Shown here in pieces: positions 47,378 to 53,219 of a stretch of 55,955 nt of DNA; the stretch's first letter is position 1, and the number at the start of each line of letters is the position of its first letter. The stretch lies in NCBI GenBank assembly GCA_021824625.1, contig JAKAKE010000139.1:1-55955 (forward strand), written 5' to 3'. The notes beneath the pieces were generated by a model that made no database searches, was not told the DNA's origin, and saw only the letters and a list, made by a program, of their open reading frames with translations. The position numbers and the translations under genes are program-made. This DNA is from Bacteroidota bacterium (GTDB taxonomy: Bacteria > Bacteroidota > Ignavibacteria > Kapaibacteriales > UBA2268).

Positions 47378-47599
47378 TTAATAATAATTAATAAATTGTT
47401 CAATTGATAATCCTGCTTGTCGCAATATTGCTCTCAGGGTTCCTTTATCAAGTGTTTTATGGTTTGGAACTACAATTTGACAAAAAGGTTCGGATTTTCT
47501 AATTATGATATGACTTCCAGTTTGACGTCTAACAGTATAACCAAATTTTTCTTATACTTTAATACATTCTTTACCTGATATTTGAGGTAGATGACTCAT
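47378..47599 (-). pseudogene. hicA: HicA-type mRNA interferase toxin, interrupted by a stop
   Basis: Missing from the ORF track because it contains a stop. Read from ATG 47599, which overlaps the hicB stop in ATGA, it gives MSHLPQISGKECIKV-stop-EKFGYTVRRQTGSH, continuing to a normal HicA end (PNHKTLDKGTLRAILRQAG, FINYY). Relatives usually have Leu at the stop position, so one base change (TTA to TAA, 47552-47554) would explain it. The double-stranded-RNA-binding-like fold and the catalytic His in GSH are otherwise intact. HicA cleaves mRNA when not blocked by HicB. As written, only a 15-aa peptide would be made. Confidence 0.85.
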
Positions 47600-47802
47600 A
47601 AAACAATAGTCATGGCTTCATATTTTTCTTCGGGAACTTCAATTCCATCTTCGAGCAAACATTCCGTATATAATTGAATTGCTTCTTTTATATTTATAAT
47701 CGCTTCTTCTTTGGTTTCCCCCTGGCTTATACAACCCGGTAAGCTTGGACATTCAACTACCCAAAAACCATCTTCTCCTTTTGTTAGAATTATCTGTCTC
47801 AT
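47596..47802 (-). CDS. hicB: HicB-type antitoxin
   Basis: A 68-aa protein with the HicB partial RNase H-like fold: ILTKGEDGFWVVECPSLPGCISQGETKEEAIINIKEAIQLY. It is short, without a C-terminal DNA-binding domain, as in many HicB proteins. It lies upstream of hicA with a 4-bp ATGA overlap, the usual co-translated arrangement in the HicB-first class. It should bind and block HicA. With the toxin interrupted, the antitoxin may be a remnant or may act on a HicA elsewhere in the genome. Confidence 0.9.
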   Translation of the reverse strand: MRQIILTKGEDGFWVVECPSLPGCISQGETKEEAIINIKEAIQLYTECLLEDGIEVPEEKYEAMTIVL

Positions 47803-49625: not shown

Positions 49626-50078
49626 TTAAGCCAGGTTATGTATCACATTAGTTACAACACCCCACACTTCGAAACTCATCTCGGATGTAATTTCGATTGG
49701 TTTGTAATTCTTATTTTCAGGAAGCAGGTAAACATGTGTCTTTTGAGTTCTGAGTCGTTTGACGGTAAGCTCGCCGTCAATAACTGCAATGACAATATTG
49801 TTATCCTTTGGATTTAATGAACGGTCAACGACAAGTATATCGCCGGAATGAATGCCTGCTTCAATCATGGAATCGCCGGTTACACGTACAAAGAAAGTTG
49901 CCGCAGGATTTCTGACGAGATGGTCATTCAAATCAAGTCTGTCCTCCATGTAGTCGTCGGCAGGAGACGGGAATCCTGCCGAAACGGCTTCGAGAAACAT
50001 AGGAAGTTTGACGGATACTCTCTTGTCAGGTTTGAGTATCCTGGTAACTCTCAGGGTATTTGACTTAACCTTTTTCAC
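49626..50078 (-). CDS. umuD: UmuD-type LexA-fold autoprotease
   Basis: A 150-aa protein matching UmuD throughout: cleavage site AVSAGFPSPADDYMEDRLDLN (Ala34-Gly35), catalytic Ser70 in RVTGDSMIEAGI and Lys107 in GELTVKRLR. Positions are shifted by +10 relative to E. coli UmuD (24/25, 60, 97). UmuD self-cleaves on RecA filaments and then joins UmuC as the translesion polymerase Pol V. No umuC gene is in this window. The gene sits 2 bp after the prohibitin-like gene and 3 bp before argD, an unusual location. Confidence 0.92.
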   Translation of the reverse strand: MKKVKSNTLRVTRILKPDKRVSVKLPMFLEAVSAGFPSPADDYMEDRLDLNDHLVRNPAATFFVRVTGDSMIEAGIHSGDILVVDRSLNPKDNNIVIAVIDGELTVKRLRTQKTHVYLLPENKNYKPIEITSEMSFEVWGVVTNVIHNLA

Positions 50079-50080
50079 GA

Positions 50081-50995
50081 TTATTTCCCTTCACCTCCGA
50101 TAATAAATGGTGTTGTACCTTTTGAATTTCCAAGAATTATAATTTTTGCATTTGGTGAGGTTACAAGCTCTTTTTGAATCTTTATTGTTTCGAACTGCAA
50201 AACTCTGTCAGATAAACCTTCGTTGACAATTTTCTGAGCATCAGCGACACCTCTTGCTTCTACTCTCTTACGTTCAGCTTCCTGCTGTTCTTTTTCAAGC
50301 ACGAATTTCATTCTCTGTGCATCCTGTACGGCAGTAATTTTTCTTTCGATGCTTTCCTTGACTGATGCAGGAAGACTTATGTTCCTTACGAGCATTTGCT
50401 CGAGAACCAAACCTCTTTCTTTAAAAGCTTTTTCTATTTGATTACGAATCTTTTGCTCAAAAGCTTCCCGCTTCTCAGCGAACAAATCAGTAGCGTCAAA
50501 ATATGAGGCGCTTTCCCTGATGCCTGTTCTTGCCGTGGGCCTGATTACTTTATCCTGGTAATCCACGCCGATTGACCTGTATATTTGCGGTGCTGATGTG
50601 GCTACTACTCTGTATAAAATAGTTAAATCAATAACAACTTCCAATCCGTCATTGCTAAGAACACGGATGGCATCATCACCTGATTTTGCACCTTCATCAT
50701 AAGTGCCGGACATCGTGTAATTCTGAGTTTGTGTACTCATTTCGGTTACATCAATCAAAGGATTTACCAAACTTAATCCTTCATAAAGGACTTGTTTTTG
50801 TACTTGTCCAAATAGAACCTGCACTCCTACATGGCCGGGGCTTATCTGCCTGATTGATGCAGTTCCAAGGCCAATAATAAATACCAAAGCACCCCCTATA
50901 AGAATCAGACTTTTAAAACGATGCAGTGGACTATCCGGCTTGGTTCCCCAAAAACCAATTGCCAGAATAATCAAGCTTACTATAATCAGTGTCAT
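50081..50995 (-). CDS. Prohibitin/SPFH (band 7) family membrane protein
   Basis: A 304-aa protein. Two closely spaced N-terminal hydrophobic segments (about 2-18 and 30-50) are followed by an SPFH domain (about 53-220: RQISPGHVGVQVLFGQVQ, VIDLTILYRV, FERGLVLEQMLVRNISLP) and a charged coiled-coil (about 220-275, EKEQQEAERKRVEARGVADAQKIV). Prohibitin-family proteins form ring-like membrane scaffolds and often regulate membrane proteases. It lies 32 bp after the Cys-tail protein gene. Its inclusion in this run raises the possibility that it shelters or organises the modified protein; that is inference. Confidence 0.92.
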   Translation of the reverse strand: MTLIIVSLIILAIGFWGTKPDSPLHRFKSLILIGGALVFIIGLGTASIRQISPGHVGVQVLFGQVQKQVLYEGLSLVNPLIDVTEMSTQTQNYTMSGTYDEGAKSGDDAIRVLSNDGLEVVIDLTILYRVVATSAPQIYRSIGVDYQDKVIRPTARTGIRESASYFDATDLFAEKREAFEQKIRNQIEKAFKERGLVLEQMLVRNISLPASVKESIERKITAVQDAQRMKFVLEKEQQEAERKRVEARGVADAQKIVNEGLSDRVLQFETIKIQKELVTSPNAKIIILGNSKGTTPFIIGGEGK

Positions 50996-51027: not shown

Positions 51028-52140
51028 TTAATCATTACTGCAACTGCCGCAGGACGAGCAGGAGTTGCAGGAACCATCGCCATAATCAACAGAATCATAA
51101 TCATCGCTCAACCAATCTTTTGAAGATGTGTCGGTTTCACTTCCAACCGAAGTATCTTCGATTAAATTAGCCTCGACAAGATTATCCTGGTATTCATTAT
51201 CACCGAAGTAGGATACATCACCGGTTCCCGGAGGTTCAAATGCCGAATCGGTGTTTAGTGTATTATAATCTCCTGAATTGAAGCCTTTTGTTCCAACATT
51301 CATTACTTCATTCCCCAAACTGTCAACAAGGTAAAAGTCGTTTAGGTAAATACTGTGAGTGAACAGCATATCTGCCCACAGCCATGAATAAAGGAAATAG
51401 TTATCGAAGCCGTAATATCCATAATAAGCCGGTTCGGCATGCCTGTCATGCTTTATTTGTTCCTTTGCGGTTACCTTCTCCTTGGGCCTGATAATCTGAA
51501 CATTTATGCTTTTCTTTATATCGTCAACCTTTACGAATCGTTTGATTGCCTGTTCAAGCTCATCAATGAAATCATTGAAAATTACTTTTTTGGAATTAAT
51601 CAATGAATCATATTTTTCCTGTGATGTGAATAGAGGTTCCAATCTTGCCTTCAATTGTTCAGATGTTTCACCCTCCCGGCATTTAAAATCGGTAATCACA
51701 CCATTGACATTTACCTTTATCGGATATTCTCCGATTTTATGCTTTCTTAGTACTGATATTTCAACAAGGTATTTGATTGATTCATCGTTATGCTCGAGAA
51801 CAAGATAGATAACATTGAAAAACTCAGATTCAATAGGGTCAACCTTTGCCTTAAACTCAAACATGGCTTGTTCCAAATCATCTTCCTCTCCCTTTTCATC
51901 GAGGTAAAAATCATAATCATCAACAGCAAGACGAATAACGTTTTTAATGTTGAGTGTCCTCAAAGCTATGTTTAACTGCTGTAAAATTGCAACCGCAGTG
52001 AACGTTTCGTGCTCCCGCTTTTGAGACAGAGAGCCGAAAGTCAGGGCATCAACAAATTTTGAGAAAAGCTTTGTCGGCTTCACCTTTTTGTAAACAGTAA
52101 TCTGTGAAGGGTCAATATCAATTTTTCCTGTCAGGTACAT
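51028..52140 (-). CDS. Unknown protein with C-terminal CxxCxxCxxC tail (candidate modified substrate)
   Basis: A 370-aa protein with no signal peptide. An N-terminal soluble domain (about 1-235) has mixed alpha/beta character with several acidic patches. Then comes an aromatic segment (about 237-275, YYGYYGFDNYFLYSWLWAD), an acidic Ser/Thr/Asp-rich linker (about 290-353), and a terminal tail GSCNSCSSCGSCSND with Cys358, 361, 364 and 367 exactly three residues apart. I recognise no family. It starts 11 bp after a radical SAM/SPASM gene, and this kind of evenly spaced Cys tail on a long protein is the arrangement expected for a SPASM-modified substrate. An alternative is a metal- or Fe-S-binding tail. 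It could also be a fold with structural zinc. Confidence 0.7.
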   Translation of the reverse strand: MYLTGKIDIDPSQITVYKKVKPTKLFSKFVDALTFGSLSQKREHETFTAVAILQQLNIALRTLNIKNVIRLAVDDYDFYLDEKGEEDDLEQAMFEFKAKVDPIESEFFNVIYLVLEHNDESIKYLVEISVLRKHKIGEYPIKVNVNGVITDFKCREGETSEQLKARLEPLFTSQEKYDSLINSKKVIFNDFIDELEQAIKRFVKVDDIKKSINVQIIRPKEKVTAKEQIKHDRHAEPAYYGYYGFDNYFLYSWLWADMLFTHSIYLNDFYLVDSLGNEVMNVGTKGFNSGDYNTLNTDSAFEPPGTGDVSYFGDNEYQDNLVEANLIEDTSVGSETDTSSKDWLSDDYDSVDYGDGSCNSCSSCGSCSND

Positions 52141-52151
52141 ACCCAGCCTCT

Positions 52152-53219
52152 TTAAGATTGATTGTTAATAATGTCATATATATGTTTTCCTTTTTTTTCA
52201 GATTCAGAGAATGCAGTTTTAATTAACATGCATTCAAGTGCCTTTCCCGCCATCTCACCATCGTAATATCTGTCTAATGGACATCCACTATTACATAGCA
52301 ACTCGTAATCACATTCGGCACATTCAGGATTCTGAAACTCACTAATATAAAGATTTCTTCTTTTATTTACTATTGTTTCAAAAGATTCTTTTTTCCAATC
52401 CGCAAATATTCCGTCATTACTGTATGCCTTGTTGCATGAATAACAATTCCCAAATATATCAAATTCGTACCAAATACACTCATTTCCTCTTTGAATGCAA
52501 TATCCCGGAGTAAGAATCTGACTGAATTGTAATAAATCATTTTCTATTAAAAAATACGAGAAATTTTCCATTTCTGATTCATTTAATGCAAATTCCCCTG
52601 TGGCAAATTTGAATTTAATTTTATAAGGATTACCTGCAATTTTTGATTGAACATTATAATATTTCAACCACTTCCCAAATTCTTCCTTGTGTCTGATTGT
52701 CTTATTTGATACGACACACAAGATTCCGACGGGGAATCCCAAATTAATTGCTTCATCCATATTTTGTATTGCTGTGTCGTATGAATTATTTCGAAGGAAA
52801 TCATGTACTTTCTTTGGCGGGTCAATCGAAAAACTTATTCTCAGCTTTTGGGGACTGTCGAGGTTTTGTTTTAAAATATTCAGATATTCTTTTGTAAACC
52901 TCAATCCATTTGACTGAATTGAAACATTCATGCCCTTTGTTTTATTTTTATTCCAATGTGAATTTACTTTTCTGATAATTTCAGCCATAGTCTTAGCTTC
53001 CATCAACGAAGGCTCGCTGCCGTGCAGACAAAAAGTTCCTATTTGATAATTTTCATTTTCCACTTTTCCAATAAATTGATTAAGTGAATTTAATATTTCA
53101 ATATCTTTTATCTTAGGCTCTTTTTTTATTTCTTCAGGTATATAACAATATCTGCACATCAGGTTGCATGTTCGATGCGTGGCGAAGTACATATTCAATA
53201 TTTTATCTGATAAGGACAT
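52152..53219 (-). CDS. Radical SAM/SPASM peptide-maturase-like enzyme
   Basis: 355 aa from the ATG at 53219. The track's start is a TTG inside the AT-rich repeat and adds eight low-complexity residues, so I prefer MSLSDKILNMYF. The SAM 4Fe-4S motif is CNLMCRYC (Cys18, 22, 25), with LHGSEPSL and ISFSIDPP strand motifs. The C-terminus is a canonical SPASM domain: CIWYEFDIFGNCYSC (CxnGx4C), then CAECDYELLCNSGC (Cx2Cx5Cx3C) and a final Cys in GKALEC, enough for two auxiliary clusters. Such enzymes install thioether or C-C crosslinks or make formylglycine. It heads the six-gene run; the Cys-tail gene follows 11 bp later. Confidence 0.92.
   Translation of the reverse strand: MSLSDKILNMYFATHRTCNLMCRYCYIPEEIKKEPKIKDIEILNSLNQFIGKVENENYQIGTFCLHGSEPSLMEAKTMAEIIRKVNSHWNKNKTKGMNVSIQSNGLRFTKEYLNILKQNLDSPQKLRISFSIDPPKKVHDFLRNNSYDTAIQNMDEAINLGFPVGILCVVSNKTIRHKEEFGKWLKYYNVQSKIAGNPYKIKFKFATGEFALNESEMENFSYFLIENDLLQFSQILTPGYCIQRGNECIWYEFDIFGNCYSCNKAYSNDGIFADWKKESFETIVNKRRNLYISEFQNPECAECDYELLCNSGCPLDRYYDGEMAGKALECMLIKTAFSESEKKGKHIYDIINNQS

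Follow-up and report, generated by a model that had tools for sequence, protein, structure and literature searches.

A radical SAM/SPASM enzyme and a 370-residue protein with a conserved cysteine tail as a candidate enzyme-substrate pair

The window, the whole stretch of 55,955 nucleotides that was analysed, carries two adjacent genes on its reverse strand. The enzyme gene comes first (52152..53219) and encodes a radical SAM/SPASM enzyme of 355 amino acids. It is followed after 11 bp by the ATG of a gene for a 370-aa protein of cytosolic type (51028..52140). Both positions and the 11-bp spacing had been given in a first-pass annotation made from the window's letters, and both hold. The enzyme most likely starts with the ATG at 53219, because the closest relative has an in-frame stop codon just upstream of the matching ATG. 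The gene order in the window and in several relatives is dtd, enzyme, protein, SPFH, umuD, argD. On the same strand as the pair, the SPFH/Band 7 (HflK-like) protein is encoded at 50081-50995, and the UmuD/LexA-like S24 peptidase, whose gene is in conserved synteny with that of the 370-aa protein and argD, at 49626-50078. A search for ORFs of 60 aa or more found no peptide ORF between the enzyme gene and dtd. A small HicB-like antitoxin-family protein of 68 aa is also encoded on this strand (47596-47802).

The enzyme matches the radical SAM model PF04055 (E=6e-15; 56 bits against a Pfam cut-off of 29.5) and the SPASM model TIGR04085 (27.9 bits against a cut-off of 27, and 32 bits in a genome search). 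Its radical SAM domain contains the CxxxCxxC motif for the SAM [4Fe-4S] cluster, C18-x3-C22-x2-C25 (53145..53168, reverse strand), which is invariant in all seven homologues. The SPASM region extends from C241 to C330 (52230..52499, reverse strand) and aligns with the SPASM domain of anSMEcpe from C255 onward. Its eight cysteines (C241, C248, C262, C300, C303, C309, C313 and C330) are all invariant in the same seven homologues and make up the set GX4C, CX2CX5CX3C and a final C. The complete SAM motif and SPASM cysteine set reported earlier for the window are conserved in these seven homologues. Structure comparison indicates that the fold resembles anSME, ChlB, SkfB and CteB, and anSME is the nearest solved structure both by profile (E=3e-15) and by fold. 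The highest NCBIfam scores are to DynA, anSME, YhhB and TIGR04083, several of which make other bonds. The named peptide-maturase models of NCBIfam all score far under their cut-offs (58.5 of 340 bits for PapB, 31 of 453 bits for TIGR03906). No N-terminal RRE domain is present, the SAM motif starting at residue 18 of 355. A genome search found this to be the sole SPASM-domain gene. Close relatives of the enzyme occur in 7 of 101 related genomes, and a search of 296 genomes of the class returned only same-genus members at E<=1e-22.

The 370-aa protein has no match in Pfam, NCBIfam or the PDB, the last also by profile search, and by these comparisons it represents a new family. Of 124 genomes examined from the order, 20 have homologues; sampling of the class and the phylum revealed none outside the order. 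The named close relatives come from Ignavibacteria and Bacteroidetes metagenome-assembled genomes. No transmembrane-like stretch is seen. The AF2 model, calculated from six sequences, has a pLDDT of 52 and no meaningful PDB match, and is too weak for use. A likeness to Csa5 was weak (E=0.012, under its cut-off) and was set aside, as was membership in TIGR04222, which gave no match. Near the C-terminus, about residues 303-356 (51073..51234, reverse strand), lies a linker that charge, conservation and pLDDT (about 30 in the AF2 model) mark as acidic and poorly conserved. The net charge of residues 290-358 is -17, in agreement with the long acidic stretch originally noted ahead of the tail.

The protein ends in the cysteine tail SCNSCSSCGSCSND (51031..51072, reverse strand), which is the proposed modification site and whose core, SSCG[SG]C, is invariant in all seven enzyme-linked copies. 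Residues 1-350 contain a single cysteine and the final 20 residues contain four, a skew that at the window's cysteine frequency of 1.1% would be expected by chance in about 0.2 of every 3000 proteins. The last 13 residues, CNSCSSCGSCSND, do contain four cysteines exactly three apart, as the first-pass annotation emphasized, but this fixed spacing is not conserved. Both the number and the spacing of the cysteines vary among homologues, with two to five in the seven enzyme-linked copies and two to six among all tailed homologues, and tyrosine takes some of the cysteine positions in relatives. This variability weakens the case for a fixed ring pattern. Among same-genus relatives the tail codons differ synonymously and CSSCGSCS[NS]D is retained, while the acidic linker drifts; mean conservation is 0.80-0.88 in the tail and 0.60 in the linker (residues 326-356). 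This pattern indicates that the tail is maintained by selection.

The enzyme gene lies directly before a gene for a tailed protein in 7 of the 7 genomes with a close enzyme relative, separated by 8-21 bp in six of them and by 205 bp in one. The genomes with this pair belong to a group of uncultured Ignavibacteria. One of these genomes (G009, locus L037) has the pair intact amid different neighbor genes. A tail-less homologue adjoining the enzyme was looked for among the homologues, and none was found. The tail is absent from all eight homologues that have no adjacent partner gene, and four of these eight occupy the same gene slot: in G008, G007, G042 and G020 the slot beside dtd has no enzyme and the protein has no tail. 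The order in G008 (L036) is dtd, protein, SPFH, umuD, argD, with an unrelated flavodoxin-type gene between dtd and the protein gene, and neither enzyme nor tail is present; L040, L042 and L044 show similar, shorter versions of this arrangement. Three distant homologues (G069, G061 and G059), from other families of the order, possess the tail with no close relative of the enzyme. The co-occurrence of tail and SPASM gene, which the first-pass annotation had proposed to check, is supported: enzyme-linked copies are always tailed, and copies without the enzyme are mostly tail-less.

With the partner gene taken as either the enzyme or the GRDP-like gene described below, tail presence and an adjacent partner agree in 18 of 18 cases; a homologue cut by a contig end (G019) was not counted, and another (G010) is represented only by a 54-aa fragment. 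These are not 18 independent trials, because the seven enzyme-linked copies sit together in the tree, which contains only about two state changes and 1-2 independent contrasts. The raw Fisher p of 2e-5 assumes independence among relatives and is not to be taken at face value. The SPFH gene, a prohibitin-family gene that had been counted with the pair, was rejected as part of a tail system. It follows synteny: most genomes that encode the 370-aa protein have it next to that gene, whether or not the tail is present, and one enzyme-linked copy and the three whose partner is GRDP-like have no SPFH gene beside them. The SPFH protein is possibly linked to the body of the 370-aa protein rather than to its tail.

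In G069, G061 and G059 the product of the gene directly before the tailed homologue is about 145 aa long and shows a conserved WHExILCTRxY...C...FGxFIHHxPGG pattern and a C-terminal CGxC. This partner resembles the GRDP-like domain PF07173, weakly by itself and more firmly through aligned homologues: the L034 protein scores 13.2 bits, under the cut-off of 22.7, and the aligned homologue L076 scores 37.1 bits. When the 20 genomes that encode homologues of the 370-aa protein were searched with PF07173, nothing exceeded the cut-off, despite this similarity. D-x2-W-H, T, Y, C and HHxP are common to 13 GRDP-like proteins from several phyla, at least six of which have a Cys-rich tail on the same chain. 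The three distant homologues show that the enzyme is, as judged from gene content, not the sole route to a tailed protein, since the tail is kept there with a different partner gene.

GRDP-like proteins with the shared pattern are encoded at L033 7452-7898, L034 6983-7495 and L035 6614-7042, and at the further loci L074, L080, L083, L088, L093 and L095. The invariant D-x2-W-H...T..Y...C...HH-x-P pattern of the bacterial members is a candidate metal site, and in many of them the same chain ends in a Cys/Gly/Ser-rich tail. Those with Cys tails are not TIGR04222 members, as no match was obtained. A literature search yielded nothing on bacterial GRDP/DUF1399 in combination with radical SAM enzymes. 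A Streptomyces sp. NBC_01220 plasmid (CP108533) has, at L093 198-2833, a row of reading frames that could possibly be a RiPP cluster: a radical SAM gene, an ORF of 42 aa whose product ends in GCGEDNPF, then a hypothetical gene and finally a GRDP-like one. The GRDP-like protein at L099 2348-2923, on a Variovorax sp. PDNC026 plasmid, has three C-terminal AWCSL repeats.

The gene pairing, the full set of cluster ligands, the conserved tail and the joint absence of enzyme and tail in the same gene slot suggest that the enzyme and the 370-aa protein are an enzyme-substrate pair, in which the enzyme would cross-link or otherwise modify the tail. We give this reading a probability of roughly 0.6. The enzyme would cleave SAM and, through hydrogen abstraction from a residue in the tail region, form a radical in the Ser/Gly/Asn/Asp-rich C-terminus. 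The radical residue could then be joined to a tail cysteine positioned at an open SPASM cluster, each thioether ring so formed lowering the mass by 2 Da. This thioether step is the least certain part of the proposed mechanism. The acidic linker would allow the tail access to the active site, and the product would be a ring-locked or a metal- or redox-binding tail on a cytosolic protein. The modified tail might serve in metal binding, in redox reactions or for attachment. Because the enzyme has no N-terminal RRE domain, it probably recognizes the protein body or the tail itself. If the proposed pairing is correct, a large cytosolic protein would be the target of SPASM chemistry at its disordered C-terminus, with neither an RRE nor a short precursor peptide.

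The partner gene of the distant homologues permits a further, more speculative proposal: the tail may be a portable substrate of interchangeable modifiers, the SPASM enzyme in the window and the GRDP-like protein in distant relatives. We regard this as possible but would not presume it. If it were so, the GRDP-like protein would belong to an unrecognized class of proteins that modify Cys tails or load them with metal. The relatives offer a three-way comparison: some copies have both enzyme and tail, some lack both, and some have the tail beside another partner. Through it, the role of Ser/Gly/Cys tails, which have been proposed to be MNIO targets as well, can be tested directly.

The enzyme could act on the tail without forming cysteine thioethers, for example by making a C-C or C-O bond, by oxidizing Cys or Ser to a formylglycine-type product, or by epimerization. 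Its nearest solved relative, anSME, is a Cys/Ser oxidizer, its best NCBIfam scores include several families that form other bonds, and tyrosine replaces tail cysteines at some positions in relatives. We consider such chemistry unlikely, though a serious competitor, as cysteine, rather than an aromatic residue or serine, is the most conserved feature of the tail, and the position of the anSME Asp277 is Asn in 7 of 7 sequences. This residue bears also on whether the enzyme is itself an anaerobic sulfatase maturase, a role for which its closeness to anSME by profile and fold would speak. The aligned residue, Asn263, is invariant in the seven and stands where anSMEcpe has D277, which we take to be its catalytic Asp; in addition, the PF00884 sulfatase was not found in the 96% complete genome, and the enzyme scores 71 bits against the TIGR03942 cut-off of 349. 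Identity as a sulfatase maturase, which the first pass had named as an outcome that would count against its proposal, was rejected on these grounds, and we assign it hardly any weight.

The tail might instead be a metal- or Fe-S-binding arm, and the 370-aa protein an accessory of the enzyme, such as a scaffold, electron donor or chaperone, with the true substrate elsewhere. CxxC spacing is typical of metal sites, the body of the protein has no known fold, and the tail persists in three genomes with no close enzyme relative. A cysteine count ranging from two to six would be unusual for a fixed site, however, and no candidate small substrate of at least 60 aa lies beside the pair, so that we find this explanation doubtful. 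It is also conceivable that the co-occurrence reflects lineage history, the same clades having lost each of the two, tail and enzyme, without any functional connection between them. The few state changes in the tree and the non-independence behind the raw Fisher value both allow for this, but the pair persists when its surroundings differ, selection maintains the tail, and the tail without the enzyme is found only where another partner gene is next door. Shared ancestry as the whole explanation therefore seems improbable to us, and modification of the tail by the adjoining enzyme remains the preferred reading.

The pair was compared with known systems. QhpD is a radical SAM enzyme whose target is a protein subunit of the same operon, much as is proposed for the enzyme described here; it introduces three thioethers between Cys and Asp/Glu into QhpC (PMC7876137). 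QhpC is small and is recognized through an N-terminal leader, whereas here a protein of 370 aa has its candidate site at the C-terminus, and the enzyme falls well short of the TIGR03906 cut-off. PapB, which makes Cys-Asp links with 0-6 residues between (PMC9413430), and other ranthipeptide and sactipeptide maturases share with this locus a SPASM enzyme beside a Cys-rich, Asp-containing target. Their targets, however, are short leader and core peptides, and the maturases usually have the RRE that is missing here. The anSMEs have the same domain layout without an RRE but differ in the Asp277 position and in having a sulfatase to act on, none having been found in this genome.

Large proteins with a C-terminal Ser/Gly/Cys tail and an oxidative metalloenzyme alongside are also known from TIGR04222, whose tailed membrane proteins are proposed substrates of MNIO (DUF692) enzymes; many members have no Cys or no MNIO enzyme (PMC12452194). 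That family is a different one, its members being membrane proteins paired with MNIO, while the protein here is a non-membrane protein paired with a SPASM enzyme; no DUF692 was present among seven neighborhood proteins scanned. The heterocycloanthracins, TOMM peptides with Cys-Xaa-Xaa repeats, likewise have repeated C-x-x units of varying copy number, but these are 88-aa peptides processed by a cyclodehydratase system without radical SAM (PMC2674419). Membership tests on the sequences place the pair in none of the systems compared. Precedents are known on both sides: SPASM-type enzymes act on proteins (QhpD, anSME), and other oxidative enzymes have been proposed for Ser/Gly/Cys tails of large proteins (MNIO with TIGR04222). 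The candidate pair would be a new variant among SPASM maturase/substrate pairs.
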